This document shows positions 3,893 to 24,672 of a stretch of DNA of 24,672 bases, one piece after another. The translations under genes and the position numbers were made by a program. How positions within the stretch are numbered: the stretch's first letter is position 1; each line of letters opens with the position of its first letter. Source of the DNA: a virus. The notes under the pieces were generated by a model. That model had not been told where the DNA came from. It saw nothing but the letters and a program-made list of their open reading frames with translations, and made no database searches. The stretch spans positions 1 to 24,672 of the IMG/VR virus record IMGVR_UViG_3300028854_000049, one strand, 5' to 3'.

Positions 3893-4444
3893 ATGACAGC
3901 CCCTAAAGAAAGTTTAGCACCATTAACGCAGGAACAAGAAAACATATTTTGGTCGAAGGTAGACAAGAATGGACCTGTTGTTCGCGAGGGGTTGACGCCG
4001 TGCTGGGTATGGAAAGAGGGAAAAGCAAATACCGGATATGGTCAATTCACGATAAACCATGTAACGTATTTGGCGCATAGAATGGCTGTTTTTATTGCAA
4101 GAGGAACAGATGTGCATGATGGAGAGGCGTGTCATGCTTGCGACAATCGACCGTGTGTGAATCCTGACCATATAGTAATTGCAGATCGAACGTACAATAT
4201 GAGAGATGCGCTCAGTAGAGGTAGAGCTAGGCATATGGTTATGCGAGGAGTGGAACACCCTAGAGCTAGATTGACAGACGAAATTGTAGCGTCGATTCGA
4301 GAAGACGTTAAAAACGGAATCAAAATGAGATTATTGGCTGAAAAATGGAAGGTTTCTAAATGCACAATTAAGGACATAGTGCATTATCGAACTTGGAAAA
4401 ATCCCTCATCTGTGAGTGTGGAAGTATGTATTCCCAAAAAATAA
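3893..4444 (+). CDS. HNH homing endonuclease with C-terminal HTH
   Basis: The 183-residue product has an HNH_3-type nuclease domain (about residues 35-110). CWVWKEG is followed by AHRMAVFIARG, then CHACDNRPCVNPDHIVI, which supplies the paired Cys residues and the N and H of the HNH motif. Residues 123-165 (ARLTDEIVASIREDV... LAEKWKVSKCTIKDI) form a helix-turn-helix that would bind the target DNA. Such free-standing endonucleases spread by cutting alleles that lack them. It sits directly upstream of terL and overlaps its 5' end by 52 bases, with its own promoter and ribosome site. Composition is AT-richer than the neighbours, as expected for a mobile gene. Confidence 0.85.
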   Translation: MTAPKESLAPLTQEQENIFWSKVDKNGPVVREGLTPCWVWKEGKANTGYGQFTINHVTYLAHRMAVFIARGTDVHDGEACHACDNRPCVNPDHIVIADRTYNMRDALSRGRARHMVMRGVEHPRARLTDEIVASIREDVKNGIKMRLLAEKWKVSKCTIKDIVHYRTWKNPSSVSVEVCIPKK

Positions 4445-9452: not shown

Positions 9453-10640
9453 ATGTTGAATGCGACCAAAGTCCGTCTCTATCCTACGCCTGAGCAAGAA
9501 CACTTTCTTGCATGTCAGTTTGGATGTGCGCGGTGGGCGTGGAATTGGGCTTTGGAAAACACACAAAATACGTACAGGGAAACCGGAAAAGGTCTGACAT
9601 TTTTTCAAATGATTCCTCTTTTGCCACCGCTAAAAAAAGAACACGAATGGCTTCATGACGCTTATTCTCAAGTTCTCCAAGCATCATTACGCAATCTTGC
9701 GGCATCGTTTCAAAACTTCTTTGAGAAGCGGGCGCGGTATCCAAGGTTTAAGTCAAAGCACGGCAAGCAGTCGATTCAGTATCCGCAGAATGTGAAAATT
9801 GTAGGAAGTAAGATACATTTTCCCAAGGTAGGAGATGTTGAGGCCGTGATTCACCGTGAGATTGTTGGACAAATCAAGACGGTTACGGTGAGCAAGAACC
9901 CCTGCGGTCACTACTACGCTTCAATCCTAACTGATGACGATATTCCTATGCCTCCGATTTCAACGAATGGAAAGGCTATCGGAATTGATGTAGGGTTGAC
10001 ACATTTAGCCATTACTAGCGACGGATCGAAGTTTAACAATCCTCGTTTCATTGCCAAGTCAGAAAAGAATCTCAAGCGTAAACAGCAGTCTTTAAGTCGT
10101 AAGAAGAAAGGTTCCAAGTCGCGTAATAATGCACGTTTGCTAGTTGCGCGAGTCCATGAACGTATCACAAATCAGCGTCGTGATTATCTTCACAAAGTCT
10201 CTCGTAGGATCGTAGACGAGAACCAAGTCATTGTTACGGAAGACTTAAACGTGAAGGGAATGACGGCCAACCATAACTTAGCAAAAGCAGTATCAGATAT
10301 AGGTTGGGGAACACTAACAGCATTTATCAAGTACAAAGCAGAGCGCGACGGAAAGGCATTCATCAAGGTAAGTCGATGGTTCCCGTCAAGCAAAGTATGT
10401 TCAGAGTGCGGCTACCAAATAGGCGAGATGCCATTGGATGTACGCTCTTGGACCTGCCCATTATGCAATACACATCATGACCGCGATATAAACGCGGCAA
10501 GGAATATCCGGGACGAAGGTCTACGGATTTTGGCGTCAGGGATTGGCGCTACTGCCGGTGGAGGCAACATAAGACGAAAGTTGGGACGCAAGTCTTCAAC
10601 TAACGAAGATGCCGTTGAATCCGGAAGCCCCCGTCTTTAG
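9453..10640 (+). CDS. tnpB: TnpB, RNA-guided RuvC endonuclease
   Basis: TnpB is the RNA-guided nuclease of IS200/IS605 elements and the ancestor of Cas12. The 395-residue protein has the usual N-terminal region (MLNATKVRLYPTPEQEHFL), an OrfB core and all RuvC residues: D179 in AIGIDVGLTH, E263 in VTEDLNVKGM and D345 in HHDRDINAARNI. It also has the four-Cys zinc ribbon C316-C319/C335-C338. The frame is intact, so activity is plausible. The C-terminus (ESGSPRL) and stop lie within the right-end hairpin, as is typical because the guide RNA overlaps the gene's end. Start ATG 9453 lies just after its promoter and lacks a ribosome site. Confidence 0.92.
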   Translation: MLNATKVRLYPTPEQEHFLACQFGCARWAWNWALENTQNTYRETGKGLTFFQMIPLLPPLKKEHEWLHDAYSQVLQASLRNLAASFQNFFEKRARYPRFKSKHGKQSIQYPQNVKIVGSKIHFPKVGDVEAVIHREIVGQIKTVTVSKNPCGHYYASILTDDDIPMPPISTNGKAIGIDVGLTHLAITSDGSKFNNPRFIAKSEKNLKRKQQSLSRKKKGSKSRNNARLLVARVHERITNQRRDYLHKVSRRIVDENQVIVTEDLNVKGMTANHNLAKAVSDIGWGTLTAFIKYKAERDGKAFIKVSRWFPSSKVCSECGYQIGEMPLDVRSWTCPLCNTHHDRDINAARNIRDEGLRILASGIGATAGGGNIRRKLGRKSSTNEDAVESGSPRL

Positions 10641-15259: not shown

Positions 15260-15907
15260 ATGATGGAACGCGACTACAAAATCGTCAAGAAAGACCGTGA
15301 GGGGTTGGATGCTGTAAGGCGTCCAACCGCTATCGAAGTTGCTTGGGCGGCTGGTATATACGAAGGCGAAGGAAGCTGCGTAACAACAAGAAATACCAAA
15401 ACTAGTACCTCTTTTGCGGTCTGTGTTCCACAAAAAGACCCAGAGTTGCTTTATCGATTGCGGGATTTGTTCGGCGGAAGAATAAGCCTCTACAACAGAA
15501 CTTTTAACGGAAATATTTGCCCAATTCATCATTGGAAAATTTGCGGGGATAGAGCAAGATCTTTTATTGCGTTGATCTATCCATTTTTAACTGCACGCAG
15601 GAAATTACAAGTAGAAACTACTCCAGCAGGAGAGTTTCTTTTGTTGGTTGATGATTTAATAGGGTTTGATGTAAATCTTGGTCCATCGCAGGTGTATGAG
15701 AGCTTATGGAATAGGATTTACGAATACGACGCACAGCAACGACAAAAGGCTTTAGAGCACAAGCGCCAAAGAGAAAAAGAATGGCGTTCAACCAAAGGGC
15801 AAGAGCCAGAATTTAAGGACCACAAACGTCTTGTCCGTCAACAACGCAGGAAAAATCAAAAGGAGCAGTCACAGGCCGAAGCTAATAAGTTAGTAGCTAT
15901 TGCCTAA
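15260..15907 (+). CDS. LAGLIDADG-type homing endonuclease, free-standing
   Basis: Residues 27-39 (VAWAAGIYEGEGS) match the single LAGLIDADG motif with its catalytic acidic residue. The following CVPQKDPELLYRLRDLFGG and LIYPFLTARRKLQVE fit the beta/alpha core of the family. One motif implies a homodimer. The C-terminal 60 residues are very basic (Lys/Arg/Gln) and may bind DNA. It lies between scaffold and capsid genes, a usual site for such parasites. Start ATG 15260 (an ATG follows at 15263) has GGAGG 6 bases upstream, partly in a hairpin. Confidence 0.85.
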   Translation: MMERDYKIVKKDREGLDAVRRPTAIEVAWAAGIYEGEGSCVTTRNTKTSTSFAVCVPQKDPELLYRLRDLFGGRISLYNRTFNGNICPIHHWKICGDRARSFIALIYPFLTARRKLQVETTPAGEFLLLVDDLIGFDVNLGPSQVYESLWNRIYEYDAQQRQKALEHKRQREKEWRSTKGQEPEFKDHKRLVRQQRRKNQKEQSQAEANKLVAIA

Positions 15908-15923
15908 CTGAAAGGATAATAAC

Positions 15924-17198
15924 ATGCCATTTACACCACAAGACCCGACCTACGGAGAAATCGATAGTTCAAACCTAGAGTCCGTAAGACGTGAAACGGT
16001 ATTTAATAACTTCTTCGTTGGGACCCCATTTCTTGAGAAGTTACGTGTTGCTGGTGTAGCTGACCCCTATCTTGGCGGCGCTGGCATGACTGAGGGCGTT
16101 CTTTACGGGCGTCCGCAGGGTTCCGCTGTAAGGCCCGGTCAGGACATTACAGTAACTCGCCAGCAGATCGATACCAAGCTGAAGTTCTGGCCGAAGGGCT
16201 ACGCTGCATGGTTCCCGATGGACGACTGGGAAATGGACGATGGCTCTGGTCAGGGTGGAGTGATAAACTCTGGTCCATCCAAAATCTGCGACATCTACAC
16301 CCTATATTTAGAGGGGCTTACGATGCAGATCAATACCATGCTGGAGATGGACTCTTTCAGGCATGGTCAGGCATCGTCCAGCACGATTGGTGACAACCGT
16401 ATTCTGTCATCGAATGGTTTGGATGAAGCCCTGAATAACGGTATTGACACTTCCCTGTATGGCAACCGCTATACCAGCTACGGAGCGCTGCAAAGGAACG
16501 GCAATATCGGCGTTGCCTTGAACGTCACGCCTCTGTATCTAGGACAGCAGGTAACGGGTGGAACGACCGCTGCTCCTGTAACCAGCAACCCTGGACAGAT
16601 TGATTTTGGTGCGTTGATGAACCTTTGGACCCGTTGCAAGGAAACGGGTGGTCAGCCTACGCTAGGAATCACGGGCGCTTTTGGATTTGCCGCAATTGCT
16701 ACCGCTTTGGACACGTATCGCAGAGATGTATCGAATATCAAGCATGATATTCGTTGGGATGCGCTTTCGTTCAACGGAGTTGATATTTTTGCCGATCCTC
16801 TGGCCCCATCCGCACAGGCGCAGAACTTCATTGCTCTTGGTCAGAATGCTGGTGCGGCAGGCAACACGAACTTGGTTGACGGCGTTGGATCGAACACAAC
16901 CACGATTCAGTACCAGACTCCTCAGTTCACGAATGCACAGGGTGGTTCGATTAACTTCTCTCCTACCAACTCTGGTTTGCCATCGAATGCTTTGATTCAG
17001 CCATCTGAAGCCCTCTATTTCTTGGAGCCTGATAGCTTCAAGCTGCGGACCACGGACAAGCCTGGATGGAACTTCGGTATTCGCAGGACTCAGTTGCCTT
17101 ACAATGTTAGCATCGACGCTATCTTTATGCGTTTGGCTACTAACTTGTACAACTGCCAGCCACGGCACTCTAACTATGCGTTTGGTTTTAGCGCCTAA
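15924..17198 (+). CDS. Major capsid protein
   Basis: A 424-residue protein in the canonical place after scaffold. The N-terminal region (ETVFNNFFVGTPFLEKLR), the VRPGQDITVTRQQIDTKLKF strand region, and the C-terminal YNVSIDAIFMRLATNLYNCQPRHS resemble, from memory, capsid proteins of related uncultured soil phages. The HK97 fold is inferred from the family, not seen directly. GAAAGGA lies about 8 bases upstream of the ATG. Codon use is more GC-rich and regular than in the endonuclease before it, as expected for a highly expressed gene. Confidence 0.85.
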   Translation: MPFTPQDPTYGEIDSSNLESVRRETVFNNFFVGTPFLEKLRVAGVADPYLGGAGMTEGVLYGRPQGSAVRPGQDITVTRQQIDTKLKFWPKGYAAWFPMDDWEMDDGSGQGGVINSGPSKICDIYTLYLEGLTMQINTMLEMDSFRHGQASSSTIGDNRILSSNGLDEALNNGIDTSLYGNRYTSYGALQRNGNIGVALNVTPLYLGQQVTGGTTAAPVTSNPGQIDFGALMNLWTRCKETGGQPTLGITGAFGFAAIATALDTYRRDVSNIKHDIRWDALSFNGVDIFADPLAPSAQAQNFIALGQNAGAAGNTNLVDGVGSNTTTIQYQTPQFTNAQGGSINFSPTNSGLPSNALIQPSEALYFLEPDSFKLRTTDKPGWNFGIRRTQLPYNVSIDAIFMRLATNLYNCQPRHSNYAFGFSA

Positions 17199-17251: not shown

Positions 17252-18091
17252 ATGCCTTTTGTAAATGCACTACCAACATGGCTTGCGTTGAACAATGCCA
17301 ACTTTACGTCTCCTACCGGGATGACTGACGCCGCAACAGGCCAGCCAGAGTACGGTGGTGGTCTGAATGTAGGCGACTACAGCGACTACACAAGCGATCA
17401 GGCTAAGACTGCATCCTATACGACTAACGGAATTCTGTATTCAGGCCGTTATCGTTTTGTGCAGGTTGACTCTGGCGCTACAGCAGCGAACGTGAAGGTG
17501 GGAACTGTCGGTTATATGAGGGCAGGATCAACCGTTAAGACGGTTGTGGTTCTCACACAGGGATCGGGACAGACACCCGGAACCTACCTGATAGGATCGA
17601 CGGGTGGCGGTGGGACAGGGGCCGTAGTTCAGGTTGTTGTATCCAGCGCTACTGCCATCACAGCCACAGTTGTAAGCGGTGGTTATGGATATACCTCGCT
17701 TCCGACATTCACTCTTGCAACAGGTGGAACACCTGGAACGGTTGCTGCTCAGTTGGACTCGACTCCAAACGTGGTAACCAGTTTTGATGTAGGTGTGACA
17801 GCAAACGCCGTCGTTCGTCCAGTAGTTTTCCTGAACTCCATCACCCCAGGAAACTATGGTTTTATTCAAGAAAATGGAATTGCAACAGTCCTTGCAAATG
17901 CTGCTCTAACTTCGGCTACCGCTGGCGCATGGGTAAACGCAAAAACTAACGGAGCGGGAACCGTAGACACCACCGCAGCTAGTGGAGCTAGTGGTTCTCC
18001 TATCGGAAGCACAATTGGACAGGCCATTGATATGCCTTATGTATCAGTCTTGTTCAAGTGCTTGCTTGATAATCCAATAGTCCAAGACTAA
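17252..18091 (+). CDS. Capsid decoration/stabilisation-like protein with GSGYT module
   Basis: A 279-residue protein immediately after the capsid gene, where decoration proteins are encoded. The flanks (SGRYRFVQVDSGATAANVKVG, then RPVVFLNSITPGNYGFIQENGIATVL) form a beta-rich scaffold. Residues about 96-168 are an inserted module with GSGQTPGTY and GYGYTSLPTFTLATGGTP. The same module type appears in the proteins starting at 19208 and 20437. AAGGAG lies about 8 bases upstream. The decoration role is inferred from position and resemblance. Confidence 0.65.
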   Translation: MPFVNALPTWLALNNANFTSPTGMTDAATGQPEYGGGLNVGDYSDYTSDQAKTASYTTNGILYSGRYRFVQVDSGATAANVKVGTVGYMRAGSTVKTVVVLTQGSGQTPGTYLIGSTGGGGTGAVVQVVVSSATAITATVVSGGYGYTSLPTFTLATGGTPGTVAAQLDSTPNVVTSFDVGVTANAVVRPVVFLNSITPGNYGFIQENGIATVLANAALTSATAGAWVNAKTNGAGTVDTTAASGASGSPIGSTIGQAIDMPYVSVLFKCLLDNPIVQD

Positions 18092-18103: not shown

Positions 18104-18125
18104 GGGGCGGTTTAACAGCCGCCCC
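18104..18125 (+). terminator. GC-rich hairpin after decoration gene
   Basis: GGGGCGGT (18104-18111) pairs with GCCGCCCC (18118-18125) around TTAACA. It lies 12 bases after the stop. No U-run follows on this strand, so termination would be partial; it could also protect the 3' end of the capsid and decoration mRNA. Confidence 0.55.
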
Positions 18126-18151: not shown

Positions 18152-19150
18152 ATGCAACCTACACTGTTGAAGGGCTACCCGGACTTGATTGGAAGACGGC
18201 AGGCGTGGACTGAATATGTAAACGGTCCTGCGTCCTATGTTGCCGGGGGTGATCCTGTAATCCTTCCTTTGTATGGGATTCACATTGACGATGTTTTTGG
18301 TCCTGTCTACAGTATGAGCGGAAACTATTTAGCTACACCTATTCCTTCGGGAGTTGGTCCAAGGAATACGTGGAAATTAAAGTGGGCAGCATCATCCACT
18401 TCTTCTTCGGGTGGTTCGTCTGCTGTTACGGCTAAACTTGGTAGTGCCGCGAGCTACGCGCTGTTAGCGTACTCAGGAATTACGAATACAGGAGCTACGT
18501 TAATTACGGGTGGTAACGCTGGTTCATATCCTACCGCTACCATTACGGGATTAACGGCAACAAACTTCTCAGCCCCTGCGGCCATTGATAATGCGGATGC
18601 GCAAGCAGCCCAGACAGCATTAGCGGCGGCAATTACGTACTATCAAGGACTGACTCCTACCCTATCTGGTCTATCGAATTTGAGTACGGGTGGAAATGGC
18701 AGCACAGCGGCGACGTACACTCCTGGAAATTACTTTTCAGTAGCCGCTTCTAGTTTGACGATGCCAACGGGTATTATTCTAGACGCGCAGGGCAATCCGA
18801 ATGCACAGTTTGTATTCGTTGCAGGCTCGACCATTAACTTAGCGAGTGGACAAACAGTATCATTAGTTAATGGAGCTACGGCAGCTAACGTAGTGTTTGT
18901 AGCTGGAAGTTCCTTTACTAGCGTTGCTACTTCAACAATGAATGGTAACATCCTAGCAGTAGCAAGTGTCACCTTGGGTGGAGGAATACAGAATGGTCGT
19001 GCGCTAGCAAATACTGGAGCGGTAACTATTGCGGCGGCAACTACTGTGACTGTCGTATCCTCGATTAACACATCTACAGGAGAGGTACCAGCAGGAACCA
19101 ATTTATCCGCTGAAGTAATGCAAATTAGCGGATATTGTGGAGATTACTAA
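18152..19150 (+). CDS. Virion-module protein with an ice-binding-protein-like (DUF3494) domain
   Basis: Residues 1-82 (LLKGYPDLIGRRQAWTEYVNGP...) and 305-332 (EVPAGTNLSAEVMQISGY) match the ends of the neighbouring protein at 19208. Between them, about residues 96-303, is a DUF3494/ice-binding-like domain. Its family marks are LGSAASYALLAYSGITNTG, the N-A-D-A-Q-A-A-Q-TAL helix, ILDAQGNPNAQFVFVAGSTI, TAANVVFVAGSSF and NGNILAVASVTLGGGIQNGRAL. The family folds as a right-handed beta-helix beside one long helix and binds ice or serves as an adhesin. No signal peptide is present, which suits a virion protein and not a secreted antifreeze. AAGGAG lies 6-7 bases upstream. Confidence 0.8.
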   Translation: MQPTLLKGYPDLIGRRQAWTEYVNGPASYVAGGDPVILPLYGIHIDDVFGPVYSMSGNYLATPIPSGVGPRNTWKLKWAASSTSSSGGSSAVTAKLGSAASYALLAYSGITNTGATLITGGNAGSYPTATITGLTATNFSAPAAIDNADAQAAQTALAAAITYYQGLTPTLSGLSNLSTGGNGSTAATYTPGNYFSVAASSLTMPTGIILDAQGNPNAQFVFVAGSTINLASGQTVSLVNGATAANVVFVAGSSFTSVATSTMNGNILAVASVTLGGGIQNGRALANTGAVTIAAATTVTVVSSINTSTGEVPAGTNLSAEVMQISGYCGDY

Positions 19151-19207
19151 CGAGTTTTTGATTTGTGATTCAATCAAGTTTTGGTGGTTAAGAAATAAGG
19201 AGAGACA

Positions 19208-19765
19208 ATGCTTTTAACGCTGCTTCATGGTTATCCAGATTTAATCGGACGCAAATTTGCATGGGTAGGATACGGAAACGGTCCTACGTCCTATGTAACT
19301 ACTGGCGATCCCGTGTCTCTTCCTCTTCCGTATACGTATATTGACGCGATCTTTGGGGGAACTATTACAGTAAGTGGTACGTACTATGTAACTCCTTCGA
19401 TTTCACAAATAGTGACTCGCCCAGCGTGGAAACTGATATGGAACTACGCTACGGCTGGCAGTGTGGCGAGTGTCGCACAGAACGTAGCTGGTACTGGCAT
19501 GACAGCAGGAACGTATACCGTAACAGCGACTACGGGAACGGCACAGATTACTGTTGTTGTGGCAACTGCTACTACATTAGGCGCAATTACGGTTATCAAT
19601 CCGGGTTCTGGATATACAACAGCGCCAACATTTACGCTGACCGGAACAGGCGGAACTCCAGCTACACTGACGGCTACGCTTTCTACGATCAATGGCGCTG
19701 TACCGGCAGGAGCTAACTTGTCGGCAGAGAGTATTCAAATCGCAGGGTATGGTGTTCAGAGCTAA
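19208..19765 (+). CDS. Paralogous virion-module protein with a GSGYT module
   Basis: The 185 residues share their ends with the preceding protein (LLHGYPDLIGRKFAWVGYGNGP..., and AVPAGANLSAESIQIAGY). The centre, about 86-159, is different: GTGMTAGTYTVTATTGTA... PGSGYTTAPTFTLTGTGG, the module also found at 17252 and 20437. Both genes are followed by the same CGAGTTTT right after the stop (19151 and 19766), evidence of a tandem duplication. The role is probably a capsid- or tail-surface protein; the exact site is unknown. AAGGAGAG lies upstream of the ATG. Confidence 0.7.
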   Translation: MLLTLLHGYPDLIGRKFAWVGYGNGPTSYVTTGDPVSLPLPYTYIDAIFGGTITVSGTYYVTPSISQIVTRPAWKLIWNYATAGSVASVAQNVAGTGMTAGTYTVTATTGTAQITVVVATATTLGAITVINPGSGYTTAPTFTLTGTGGTPATLTATLSTINGAVPAGANLSAESIQIAGYGVQS

Positions 19766-20436: not shown

Positions 20437-21672
20437 ATGAGCTTGGGGACAATGATTCAGTCACTTCTCGGAACGATACCAGGGAGTAACTACGGTCTTG
20501 TCAAAACAAGTATAAACGATGCCTTCAGAAAAATACAAGATGAAAATATGTGGTCTTTCCAACTAAAGACTGGAGGTTGGTTAACTCCAAGTTTGTTAGG
20601 TGGCCCCAACACTTCATTTCTAAGCCCCGGAACAATCACAGTAGTACCATTTACAACCACAATCACTGGCGATGCGGTTGCAACGGCTGCATGGACGACT
20701 AACGTCCCTTACCCTCCATTGTTGACTCAGCAGCAAATCAGAGTACCATATTTTGATATATACAACATCATTGCGTTAGGAAATAACGGAACTGTGGCTT
20801 CCGCTACAGTCTCTACCGCAGGCGCTTCACAAACTCCCGGCGTCTATACTGTCCCCATTCTCGATTCCGCGACGGGCGCTGGTGGAACTGTTTCTATTAC
20901 TGTAGATGCTAACGGAACAGTGACAAAAACCCCGGTATTGTTGAATGCAGGAAGCAACTACACGACTCCGTACATTACGTTCTCAGCGGGTGGAAATCCT
21001 GCCACGTTCTCGGTTACTTTAATTGCGACGCTGACGATTGATAGACCTTGGACCGCCCCCCCAGCACAGTCTTCAAACTACATGATTTACCAGAGCCTGT
21101 ATCCCGCTCCCGCTGGTTTTAAGAAGTGGTTTTATATAAGCGATGTGCAGAATAACTGCGGAATGGATTGGTGGACTAAGACAGAATCGGACTTGGCGAA
21201 TGATGATCCTGAAAGAACGATCTTTGACCAACCTTACTACGTATGTGCTTGGGGTCCAGACAATAGGCCGGGAAGCGCAACTGCAGGTCAAATGATGTAC
21301 GAACTCTGGCCCTCGCCAATTTCTGTTTTGACCTACTCGTTTGGTTGCTTGTGTAATTATCCTCCACTGGTTAATAACACAGACACAATTCCTTATCCAT
21401 TAAACGATGAAATCGTTAAGTGGAGAGCAAGGGAAATACTTTGCCAATGGAAAGAAGGAATGAAGGGTGATAATTTGGAGCGCGGTTCAGGCGCTAACTG
21501 GCAGTTCTTAAGTAAGGCAGCACACGAGGAATACAAGGAATTATTGAAACAGGCAAGGATTATGGATAGCAACCTTGTCAGTTTGTATTTCACCAAGTCT
21601 CGTCAGTTACCGCCGTTTGGAGGAGAACCTTTCTCAAGTCCTAACGGAAACACAAATATAGGTTTGTTTTAA
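20437..21672 (+). CDS. Head-tail connector/adaptor-like protein with inserted GSGYT module
   Basis: The N-terminus (MIQSLLGTIPGSNYGLVKTSINDAFRKIQDENMWSF) is the helical start typical of phage adaptor proteins that dock on the portal. The C-terminal part (LNDEIVKWRAREILCQWKE... AHEEYKELLKQARIMDSNLV) is also helical. From memory the whole resembles a conserved soil-phage connector. Between IYNIIAL and TLTIDRPW, about residues 117-196, a GSGYT-type module (ASQTPGVYTVPILDS... AGSNYTTPYITFSAGG) has been inserted into what is otherwise a short strand connection. GGAG lies about 10 bases upstream. The adaptor role is inferred. Confidence 0.65.
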   Translation: MSLGTMIQSLLGTIPGSNYGLVKTSINDAFRKIQDENMWSFQLKTGGWLTPSLLGGPNTSFLSPGTITVVPFTTTITGDAVATAAWTTNVPYPPLLTQQQIRVPYFDIYNIIALGNNGTVASATVSTAGASQTPGVYTVPILDSATGAGGTVSITVDANGTVTKTPVLLNAGSNYTTPYITFSAGGNPATFSVTLIATLTIDRPWTAPPAQSSNYMIYQSLYPAPAGFKKWFYISDVQNNCGMDWWTKTESDLANDDPERTIFDQPYYVCAWGPDNRPGSATAGQMMYELWPSPISVLTYSFGCLCNYPPLVNNTDTIPYPLNDEIVKWRAREILCQWKEGMKGDNLERGSGANWQFLSKAAHEEYKELLKQARIMDSNLVSLYFTKSRQLPPFGGEPFSSPNGNTNIGLF

Positions 21673-22090: not shown

Positions 22091-24672
22091 TTGAAAAAGA
22101 CAATCATTATTTTGATGCTTCTATTTTCGGTTAAGACGTTCGCTCAGACGGCGGCATTGCCGGTGTATGCTTGTGTCCAGAACGGAACACAAGCCGTCAC
22201 CAGCGGTCTGAAGTCAAGCAACTACCAACTTGGCGTAGTTCCCTATTGCTCTGTGAGCGTCTACTTGACAGGCACGACCACTATCGCCACTACGACTCCA
22301 CAGAGTCCGTTTAGGGCGAATAAGGATGGCTCTATTCCCCCGATTTATGCGGCTGTAAACCAGGGATACGATGTGGTGTTGAGCGGAGGAATTTCGCCTA
22401 ATACTTATACATCTCCGGTACCGCTGACTGATTTATATCCGGGATTCAGCTTTAGTGGCATCTCCAGACTCATCGCGGGAACGAATATAACGCTTTCCCC
22501 ACCAGGAGGGACCGGAAACGTCACGATAAGCGCGCGTGGAGTCGTTTTAATGCAGCAGGTGGTTCCTCCAGTTTCCGGGCAGTACGTGATCGTCTATCCG
22601 ACGACTTACACAGGTAATTGGGCCGGTCAAAGCGCAGTAGGTGGCAGTTGGATTGATCCTCCGACATGTGTTGGAACTAGCATAGGAACGGAATCATGGG
22701 GAAATCCAGTTCTTCCGAGTTATGTTCTACCTTCGAACGTAACTGCTGTGTATGCGTTTGCATTAACGCGTGAATACGTAAACCCTTCAGATGGAGGCTG
22801 TCTTGGGCAACCTTTCACCCCTGCGCCCGCGTCTTTTTCAGTGGGCGCTAGTGGAACATCTTCTGTTTTGACACCTACCTCTACTCCAATATGGGCACCA
22901 GTTCAGAATGCGGTTCTATTACCCAGTGTAACTGGAGAAAACTTTGCTTCACAAACTTTCAGTGCAAGTTATGGGGCGTCTAGCCCTATTCGTACGGGAT
23001 CTAGTGGCGTCGTATCTTTGGGATGGATTGTTTATTACACGGGTTCCGCGCCCCCGGCGGACACTGACATCCAAGTTGAACTGCCTCTTTACTATAATTC
23101 TGTGGACAATTCTCTAAGTATAAGTCCGCTATCTGAGTTTCCTGGATCGGCTTTGGTCCCTACCACGGTTGCAAATCTTCCGTGGGCTGCGGCCTCAAAC
23201 GGATGGGTTGTGCCGGTTACGGATGCCTTAACCTCGACATCGTGCGCCATAGGTGGAGGATTCAACTACGTTCAGTGCAAGAGCGACGGCTCTAACTGGT
23301 ACCCGCTGCCTAGCTCCCCTGTAGCTTTCGCCCTTACCACGACTGGCACGAGCGGCGTGGCAACATATCAATCTGGAACTCTAAATATCCCGCAGTATAC
23401 CAGCTCAACGGTTGCCACATTTGCAACCGGAACGTCCCCTATGGGAATCACAGTGGATAGCTCAGGAAATATATGGGTCGCCAACAATGCAAGTAGTACC
23501 GTCAGAGAATTTACAGGTGGTGGAGCATTTATTCGAGATGTGAGTGTTGAGGAGCCGAACAGTCTGGCTCCCGATTCATCCGGTAATGTGTGGGTGGTCA
23601 ATAGCAGCTATTCCAACTCTGTTAGTAAAATATCAAGCACAGGCTCCGTTTCCAGTACGTATGGGACGGGAGATAGCACGTCCGGTATAGCGCTCGACTC
23701 TTCGGGAAACATCTTTGTTGCAAATTTCTATGCACAGACGATTATCAAAAGATCGCCCGCCTGGGCTGACCTTGGAGATTTTTCTATTCCGTGCCAAAAT
23801 GAAGCGGTGGCTATTGATGCAACCGGAAACGCATGGACACGTTGCCGCAACGGTGTCACTGCATACGAGGTGACTACATCCGGTACCGTCCTCGGACCAT
23901 TTGCCATAGGGACAAATGCAAACAATGATGCCGGTATCGCTGCCGACTCTTCGGGCAATGTCTGGTTTACAAACAGCGGAGGAGCAAGCGTCACCAAACT
24001 GTCCAGTTCAGGAGCACTAGTAGGGACATACCCGGTTGGGGGAGGACCAATTGGTATAGCTATCGATTCATCGACAGGCAATGTGTTCGTCGCAAACCAA
24101 AACGACAATACCGTTACTGAACTATCGTCATCTGGGATTCACCTAAACACTTTCTCGGTCGGTGCAGGACCGTACGGAGTAGCTATCGACCCATCTCATA
24201 ACATATGGGTCACGAATTATACGGGCAACACGGTTTCAGTAATCAGTTTGCAGCCTCCATTAACATGGCCTTTTCAGGCAGGTATTCCTGTTTACAGCGG
24301 TAGCGGATCATGGTTGTCATCGCTGGCCCCCGTCAATGGTGCCTGCGTGGTAGGAGCGGGCGGCGCTTGGACTGCTGGCTCTTGCGCTGGCAGTGATTCC
24401 TCCCCTCTCACGACTAAGGGCGATCTGTACGGATACAGCACGACGAATGCGCGTATCCCTGTTGGAACAGACGGAGACGTGTTGACAGCGGACTCGACCC
24501 AGGCGCTAGGGCTGAAATGGGCGGCGGGTGGCGGCGGCTCCGGCACGGTGAACAGTGGGACGGCGGGTCAGGCTACTTACTATGGTGCGACGGGTAGCAC
24601 TGTTAGCGGAACGAACTCTTTACCCCCATCTGTTGCCACGGCAAACTCTTTCAGTATCCAAGCCGCGCCATA
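22091..24672 (+). CDS. Tail-fibre-like protein with Sec signal peptide and seven-repeat beta-propeller, 3'-partial
   Basis: An uninterrupted frame of 860 codons runs to the window edge from TTG 22091, 6 bases after GGGAGG (22079-22084). Residues 1-19 (MKKTIIILMLLFSVKTFAQ) form a signal peptide with a T-F-A cleavage site. Residues 50-125 hold a fibre N-terminal pattern (YDVVLSGGISPNTYTSP). Residues about 437-720 contain seven NHL/Vgb-like repeats (DSSGNIWVAN, DSSGNVWVVN, DSSGNIFVAN, DATGNAW, DSSGNVWFTN, DSSTGNVFVAN, DPSHNIWVTN), enough for a closed propeller. Then comes SSPLTTKGDLYGYSTTNARI, a repeat common in tail fibres. It probably binds the host surface. A signal peptide is unexpected for a virion protein. 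Confidence 0.8.
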   Translation, partial: MKKTIIILMLLFSVKTFAQTAALPVYACVQNGTQAVTSGLKSSNYQLGVVPYCSVSVYLTGTTTIATTTPQSPFRANKDGSIPPIYAAVNQGYDVVLSGGISPNTYTSPVPLTDLYPGFSFSGISRLIAGTNITLSPPGGTGNVTISARGVVLMQQVVPPVSGQYVIVYPTTYTGNWAGQSAVGGSWIDPPTCVGTSIGTESWGNPVLPSYVLPSNVTAVYAFALTREYVNPSDGGCLGQPFTPAPASFSVGASGTSSVLTPTSTPIWAPVQNAVLLPSVTGENFASQTFSASYGASSPIRTGSSGVVSLGWIVYYTGSAPPADTDIQVELPLYYNSVDNSLSISPLSEFPGSALVPTTVANLPWAAASNGWVVPVTDALTSTSCAIGGGFNYVQCKSDGSNWYPLPSSPVAFALTTTGTSGVATYQSGTLNIPQYTSSTVATFATGTSPMGITVDSSGNIWVANNASSTVREFTGGGAFIRDVSVEEPNSLAPDSSGNVWVVNSSYSNSVSKISSTGSVSSTYGTGDSTSGIALDSSGNIFVANFYAQTIIKRSPAWADLGDFSIPCQNEAVAIDATGNAWTRCRNGVTAYEVTTSGTVLGPFAIGTNANNDAGIAADSSGNVWFTNSGGASVTKLSSSGALVGTYPVGGGPIGIAIDSSTGNVFVANQNDNTVTELSSSGIHLNTFSVGAGPYGVAIDPSHNIWVTNYTGNTVSVISLQPPLTWPFQAGIPVYSGSGSWLSSLAPVNGACVVGAGGAWTAGSCAGSDSSPLTTKGDLYGYSTTNARIPVGTDGDVLTADSTQALGLKWAAGGGGSGTVNSGTAGQATYYGATGSTVSGTNSLPPSVATANSFSIQAAP

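Follow-up and report, generated by a model that had tools for sequence, protein, structure and literature searches.

Why would a tailed phage carry an ice-binding-like domain inside a protein encoded near its capsid gene? The question is posed by a virus record of 24,672 bases, a 24.7-kb fragment from a metagenome, the whole of which is called the window here. From patterns in the sequence, the initial annotation had assigned about 208 residues encoded at positions 18437 to 19060 to the DUF3494 family, had noted that the surrounding protein (P0001) has no signal peptide, and had suggested that a virion could display the domain. The family assignment was borne out by the Pfam HMM PF11999 (DUF3494, Ice_binding), which matched P0001 with an E value of 1.5e-30 (106.9 bits against a curated cutoff of 28.7). 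The match covers residues 105 to 297 and nearly the whole profile (positions 2 to 206 of 208); the annotated span corresponds to residues 96 to 303, and all three of the motifs originally quoted are present. By sequence, P0001 also matched 23 distinct sequences in the PDB at an E value of ≤0.01, the best being 6eio (2.1e-17). All are named as ice-binding, antifreeze, or DUF3494 proteins except 6bg8, which is named “Ig domain protein, group 2 domain protein” and whose entry title is that of the S. frigidimarina IBP DUF3494 domain.

The predicted structure agrees with these matches. An AlphaFold model of P0001 (pLDDT, 77.5; pTM, 0.71; 38 aligned sequences) has block means of 76 to 95 over residues 91 to 300, and of 28 to 78, i.e., low confidence, over carrier residues 1 to 90. 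The predicted fold is a beta-solenoid with 19 strands between residues 102 and 300, among which runs one long helix (residues 150 to 165). Foldseek returned 31 PDB chains at an E value of ≤1e-3, all with titles of ice-binding or antifreeze proteins, and VIA-align superimposed the model on 7bwx with a Z score of 30.4 and an rmsd of 1.6 Å over 197 residues. The match to solved ice-binding proteins (IBPs) spans residues 90 to 303. The PF11999 match, the PDB relatives, the model, and the fold matches therefore confirm the original observation, including the expected solenoid with a single long helix; its handedness, given there as right-handed, is left-handed according to PMC12337378. P0001 thus resembles the DUF3494 IBPs AnpIBP (7bwx), EfcIBP (6eio), FfIBP, and SfIBP in its full domain, predicted fold, and bracing helix and, judging from the alignment, in the S/A/G-x-T rungs of the ice-binding face. 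The characterized DUF3494 IBPs mostly possess a signal peptide (PMC9957290), whereas the domain of P0001 is an insert and no signal peptide is evident by eye at the N terminus of the protein, as had been noted.

Table 1. Positions of the carrier genes, their parts, and their neighbors in the window
Feature	Coordinates	Strand	Basis
Putative major capsid protein gene	15924..17198	+	phrog_9953 major head protein, 1.1e-5, residues 232-294 only
P0003, 279-aa structural-module protein, neighbor, with its own GxGYT-type stretch	17252..18091	+	
AGGAG ribosome-binding-like site, P0001 gene	18142..18146	+	read in sequence; five bases before ATG
P0001, 332-aa carrier protein with inserted DUF3494 domain	18152..19150	+	ORF, PF11999, AlphaFold model
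Carrier N-terminal part, all-beta, residues 1-80	18152..18391	+	alignment with 23 viral loci; also occurs without insert, as proteins of 108-114 aa
DUF3494 / PF11999 ice-binding-like domain	18437..19060	+	residues 96-303 of 332-aa ORF 18152-19150
Carrier C-terminal strand, residues 305-332, ..EVPAGTNLSAEVMQISGY..	19064..19147	+	sequence alignment
AGGAG ribosome-binding-like site, tandem paralogue	19198..19202	+	read in sequence
P0002, 185-aa tandem paralogue: same carrier, GxGYT-type insert in same loop	19208..19765	+	
ORF in connector position	20437..21672	+	position only; weak GxGYT stretch, phrog_438 0.0022

The two carrier genes (18152-19765) belong to the structural module and lie close to the putative major capsid gene, whose call comes from a weak and partial match (phrog_9953). 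The order of putative capsid gene, one further gene, and carrier gene is shared by the window, L018, L059, and L064, and L005 has the same neighborhood with one extra ORF in between. The initial annotation had placed the DUF3494 protein between the decoration and connector genes. This placement needs revision, as the DUF3494 protein is itself likely to be the decoration-type protein, and the downstream ORF is a connector by position only. The intervening gene product, P0003, to which no function is assigned, matches phrog_438 (2.8e-5) and phrog_460 (2.7e-4) in its GxGYT-type stretch (residues about 80 to 169). A perfect hairpin, GGGGCGG..CCGCCCC, without a T-run, is found at 18104-18125, just before the P0001 gene.

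The part of P0001 outside the domain, residues 1 to 80 and 305 to 332, recurs in the tandem ORF with a different insert. In total, 23 viral loci with the N-terminal part of the carrier were found and read gene by gene, and wherever an insert is present it occupies one and the same loop. The loop is empty in eight loci (L044, L046-L051, and L053), holds a GxGYT-type domain in eight (L038-L043, L045, and L052), DUF3494 in six (L001, L004, L007, L034, L035, and L037), and in one (L036) a long insert with no Pfam or PHROG match. These are counts of loci rather than of events, since near-copies are included (L038-L040; L044/L051; L001, L004, L034, and L035). In all five complete DUF3494 carriers, the domain lies between both carrier parts, and the sixth, L007, ends at a contig end. 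The flank-domain-flank layout, for which a survey of viral sequences had been proposed, is accordingly found in other viral contigs, at a site that is elsewhere empty or otherwise filled. Twenty-three loci with one loop in four states amount to a constant core with an exchangeable, putatively displayed domain. The tandem arrangement recurs as well: in 5/5 cases (L059, L060, L061, L063, and L064), a plain carrier gene of 120 to 126 aa directly precedes the DUF3494 carrier gene, and, the genes of L059, L060, and L061 being identical, these represent three distinct cases.

A model of the 109-aa plain carrier of L047 (pLDDT, 77.0; pTM, 0.66) has seven strands and is probably a beta-sandwich, in which the predicted insertion site is the loop between the last two strands. 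The fold of the plain carrier found no confident counterpart in the PDB (best E value, 0.15), by VIA-align (best Z score, 6.0), or in BFVD (best E value, 5.9e-3, to an unnamed 112-aa protein). Searches of Pfam gave no match, those of PHROGs gave 0.064 at best, and no family match named a capsid protein; tblastn of 50,697 records of cultured phages gave no match to the plain carrier. A scan of GTDB for the carrier returned one contig of an Acidobacteriaceae MAG (L095), which is no more than a hint, from sequence, of an Acidobacteriaceae host, and a family search gave no PF11999 match in the assembly of L095. One relative (G007/L018) has a single carrier gene with a GxGYT insert beside its capsid gene and no PF11999 match in its 65.8-kb record, and it forms a natural outgroup for dating the gain of DUF3494.

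The domain is not confined to this carrier. A scan of viral contigs yielded 41 DUF3494 domain loci, and of 32 domain-bearing records searched, 8 contain a protein related to the capsid protein of the window; the remaining 24, some of which are short fragments, lack one. Record G002, which is 99.5% identical in DNA to the window over 9 kb and represents the same species, encodes a 1290-aa tail-region protein that contains a second DUF3494 copy, 79% identical in DNA over 632 bp. This protein has no PHROG match; it is encoded two genes before a gene with tail-fiber matches, and the gene preceding it has a subthreshold SU10-adaptor match (23.5 bits against a cutoff of 27). Among 15 orthologues that were read to their end, out of 19 loci, the domain is present in 2 and the site is empty in 13, including two pairs that appear to be copies. 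DUF3494 is likewise absent from the orthologues in G003 and G007, and the one in G003 (C1:26008-29385; L032 and L033) reads through one in-frame TAA, reflecting either a genuine interruption or faulty assembly. A comparable arrangement is seen in a second carrier family, in which a plain gene of 125 to 129 aa is directly followed by a copy with an N-terminal DUF3494 in four of five loci (L148-L151); the fifth, L152 (in the L010 record), has the fused form only. A look-alike “PD-x-x-GK/R..GG.P” stretch had suggested that the first and second carrier families (C-terminal part of L008-L010) are homologous, and this is not claimed, given an hhalign probability of 1% (P, 0.046).

Among the large carriers, PHROGs named 4 of the 12 tested (L087, L088, L090, and L093); the other 8 were uninformative, with L067 falling in a family of unknown function and L066, L068, L069, L080, L081, L091, and L094 giving no PHROG match. 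The L008-L010 proteins likewise had no PHROG match. L088 and L090 have PF11999 at residues 174 to 355 and 174 to 358, respectively, of a 754-aa tail sheath (phrog_2839; E values, 4.1e-36 and 5.7e-37). When the whole L090 sheath was compared with cultured phages by tblastn, the best 15 of 214 matching records aligned with its C-terminal part (residues 398 to 753), which matches tail sheaths. The first among the matches listed is Tunturi_5, a phage of Tunturiibacter psychrotolerans, an acidobacterium, from Finnish soil. Three separate open frames of the L090 record each encode a PF11999 domain. L093 is a 1266-aa tail sheath (phrog_10581, 3.4e-211; Phage_sheath_1C, 7.2e-8) with PF11999 (5.9e-31) at residues 238 to 417. 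The sheath of phage Atu_ph07 aligns with L093 residues 13 to 178, 491 to 620, and 693 to 1260 and has a shorter, nonmatching stretch at the place of DUF3494. In L087, PF11999 lies within a 2526-aa Baseplate_J protein. Display of DUF3494 on virions is strongly indicated by its presence within the tail sheath and baseplate proteins of other phages. The initial interpretation is therefore supported in part: it stands for family and fold and, by way of these phages, is strengthened for virion display, which for the particle of the window's phage we infer; adhesion to ice, mineral, or host surfaces stays a suggestion.

All of these carriers come from uncultured phages. No DUF3494 match was obtained by tblastn of 50,697 cultured-phage records with P0001, the L008 protein, and the L090 domain, and neither Tunturi_5 nor Atu_ph07 has a PF11999 match. 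The same is true of Synechococcus phage S-SKS1, which PMC11515562 names as a homologue; the same family search was positive on other records. Two minor features of the domain loci are that L074:3944-5928 encodes two DUF3494 proteins in tandem, and that in L073:3941-5701 our own profile marks a possible second DUF3494 stretch at residues 357 to 554 of the open frame, where Pfam counts one.

The domain is under purifying selection, as judged from codon alignments of eight domains (NG86). Nine of 28 pairs gave a ratio, the other 19 being saturated at silent sites, and dN/dS ranged from 0.048 to 0.113, rough values for the 5/9 pairs with dS above 1.8. The ratios for the window domain were 0.059 against L003, 0.098 against the second copy in G002, and 0.068 against L005, and that for L059 against L063 was 0.048. 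The N-terminal part of the carrier gave 0.193 (window against L005) and 0.247 (window against L059). Replacement sites were changed at a share of 0.142 in the domain and 0.281 in the carrier N-terminal part between the window and L005, and of 0.156 and 0.409, respectively, between the window and L059. The domain is therefore constrained and evolves more slowly than its carrier; the pair of window and L003 is uninformative on this difference because its N-terminal part has zero replacement changes in 84 codons.

A tree was computed from 30 viral rows together with 20 that represent a single acidobacterial family. The viral rows are the window and 29 of the 41 domain loci; L058, L062, and L077-L079 are represented by earlier loci at the same places, and L054-L057 (the window's species), the near-copies L060, L061, L082-L084, and L089, the partial L076, and L093 were omitted. 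Nineteen viral rows form one clade (100/99) that is phage-only relative to this sample. Within the tree, the domain of the window pairs with the second copy of G002 (96/73), and L005 comes next (98/91). The window domain is 86% identical to that second copy, 75% to L065, and 69% to L066, all in other carriers. Among 396 genomes of the acidobacteria, the phylum of G012, 27 contain a match, with a best identity to the phage domain of 47%, and no cellular donor was found among them.

Building on the domain, its predicted fold, the single site with alternative inserts, the tandem duplication, and the purifying selection, together with the second copy in a tail-region protein and the sheath and baseplate carriers of other phages, all of which are established at the level of sequence, we consider it fairly probable that the exterior of a tailed-phage particle bears a DUF3494 beta-solenoid as a mobile cassette, one face of which binds ice or another ordered surface. 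The cassette would occupy a single loop of a small all-beta protein encoded beside the capsid gene. The tandem gene would supply the same carrier with another cassette and relatives make the plain carrier, so that plain and armed copies could occur side by side on one particle. In the window's phage, the carrier may be a capsid decoration-type protein, with plain and armed copies together on the head, and a flat face of small residues and threonines would grip the surface. Virions could thereby stick to ice or grain surfaces where hosts gather or gain shelter during freezing. A broader version, in which several unrelated groups of uncultured phages armed capsid decoration, sheath, and baseplate proteins with ice-binding solenoids spread by domain shuffling, so that free virions would attach to ice, or be retained where ice meets brine, alongside their hosts, is offered only tentatively.

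The rungs of the B-face were mapped by sequence onto 7bwx. The aligned rungs of the window are SGITNT, ATIT, SSLTMP, STINLA, SSFTSV, ASVTLG, and GAVTIA. Down column 4, the residues are T, T, T, N, T, T, and T, giving threonine in 6/7 rungs, a count reached in 3 of 100,000 random draws from the domain for this one column, uncorrected for the choice of column; in L005 and L059, it holds threonine in 5/7 rungs (36 and 227 of 100,000, respectively). Columns 1 and 2 of the window contain S, A, G, or T only and are uncharged in the 19 phage rows. AnpIBP requires residues S153 and T156 (PMC7277481), and the equivalent positions of the window domain are S and T. The share of threonine in column 4 is 70% both in the 19-row phage clade and in the 20 acidobacterial cellular rows; the threonine-rich face is therefore a family trait and no proof of ice. 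Nor did the B-face prove to be the most conserved surface, as its mean entropy in the phage clade was 0.96, compared to 1.05 for random sets, of which 5,229 of 20,000 were as low. In sequence, the ice-binding face is intact, which is necessary but insufficient for ice binding, and ice is a plausible ligand of the window domain, with a polysaccharide or mineral a possible one.

It is conceivable, if on the unlikely side, that virion display is right and that the ligand is not ice but a polymer or mineral, such as host capsule, extracellular polysaccharide, or a humic or clay surface, the domain serving as a weak, broad adhesin in the manner of the Ig-like domains of other phages. DUF3494 occurs in ice- and substrate-binding proteins (PMC12337378), many DUF3494 proteins also have Ig-like and adhesion domains (PMC9957290), and the decoration proteins Hoc, pb10, gp12, and gp8.5 act via carbohydrates (PMC7602432). 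The domain is, moreover, common in acidobacterial genomes (26/150 in one family). The flat, uncharged S/A/G-x-T ladder is nevertheless the ice-binding pattern and has been kept, and a domain that changes more slowly than its carrier is not what would be expected of a surface evolving in competition with the glycans of the host.

That the solenoid is structural filler, a rigid spacer that stabilizes the particle and binds nothing, seems improbable to us. The same loop also accepts GxGYT-type and other inserts, the columns of the B-face show no special conservation, and the additional domains of tail sheaths may cement the tail (PMC9230969), all of which a spacer would accommodate. Purifying selection and the retained uncharged threonine face speak against it, however, and carriers of several different families argue for a portable function.

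Much less credible still is an auxiliary host-protection gene, from which the infected cell would produce a soluble ice-binding protein, the sense in which three viral PF11999 genes are read in PMC11515562. By eye, 2 of the 41 domain loci do look like free proteins (L085, which has a signal-peptide-like start, and L086), but no signal peptide is evident in the window copy, which lies within a structural-module carrier that exists without the domain, while other phages place the domain in sheath and baseplate proteins. Whereas an auxiliary gene would make a stand-alone or secreted product, the window's carrier type is neither. Finally, an assembly artifact or cellular contamination has a practically negligible chance of explaining the gene: metagenomes are the source of every contig, the fragmentary window included, but the P0001 gene is present in four further contigs of 35 to 54 kb with 99 to 100% protein identity, and relatives occur in L005 (68%) and in L059, L063, and L064 (63 to 65%), in the same records as the capsid gene; these independent contigs refute an artifact.

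Display on the particle therefore remains our preferred reading, and the nearest known principle is that of the Ig-like domains of phage particles (PMC10385173, PMC7602432, and PMC9230969), which occur on head, tail, and baseplate proteins (PMC10385173 and PMC7602432). Hoc-type and Ig-like virion domains likewise combine a conserved particle-binding core with exchangeable display domains (PMC10385173 and PMC7602432). The window's domain differs in being a DUF3494 solenoid rather than Ig-like, in occupying an internal loop, and in the tandem of plain and armed genes; Pfam scans showed no relation of the carrier to Hoc. The additional domains of tail sheaths (PMC9230969) have their counterpart in L088/L090 and L093, where the extra sheath domain is DUF3494. 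Those described in the available text of PMC9230969 are mostly Ig-like beta-sandwiches, and ice is not mentioned there. The “ice-binding-like” auxiliary metabolic genes of Central Arctic viruses (PMC11515562) belong to the same Pfam family as the window domain and are interpreted as host cryoprotection, with no mention of virion display in the available portions of that article. An “antifreeze protein domain” is an accessory gene in a Pseudoalteromonas phage (PMC6527751), and antifreeze protein homologues occur in polar giant viruses (PMC13335480), in both cases with no family stated in the accessible text. Within the partly accessible open-license PubMed Central literature, which leaves most subscription journals outside, PMC11515562 was the only source found on viral PF11999, and no statement on DUF3494 on virions was found.

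If the proposal is true, DUF3494 would be a second portable adhesion class after the Ig-like domains, found on head-module, sheath, and baseplate proteins and extending adhesion to a physical surface, and whether viruses bind ice could be tested directly and cheaply. Ice binding, if it holds, would bear on the survival and movement of viruses in frozen ground, sea ice, and snow. In practice, the carrier protein of a viral PF11999 match should be checked before the match is called a host-protection gene.

Several further features of the window deserve mention. The GxGYT-type stretch (phrog_438/460/701-like) is a second portable module, present in the window at 17252-18091, 19208-19765, and 20437-21672 and twice in a tail-region protein of the window's species (L006:6796-9966). 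The gene after the connector region (22091-24670) has, by eye, a signal-peptide-like start (e.g., MKKTIIILMLLFSVKTFAQ), which is shared by L003:9945, L005:9823, L059:6779 and 8278, L063:7605, L064:6500 and 7943, and L095:10274; the window copy runs on into NHL/Vgb_lyase propeller repeats, which is odd for a tail-region protein. Amid the phage genes, a 395-aa ORF (9453-10640) resembles what we take to be a TnpB/OrfB-type transposon protein, and the ORFs at 15260-15907 and 3893-4444 presumably resemble homing endonucleases of the LAGLIDADG and HNH types, respectively. The LAGLIDADG-type-like ORF directly precedes the putative capsid gene, and look-alikes are found in the same place in L059 and L095.
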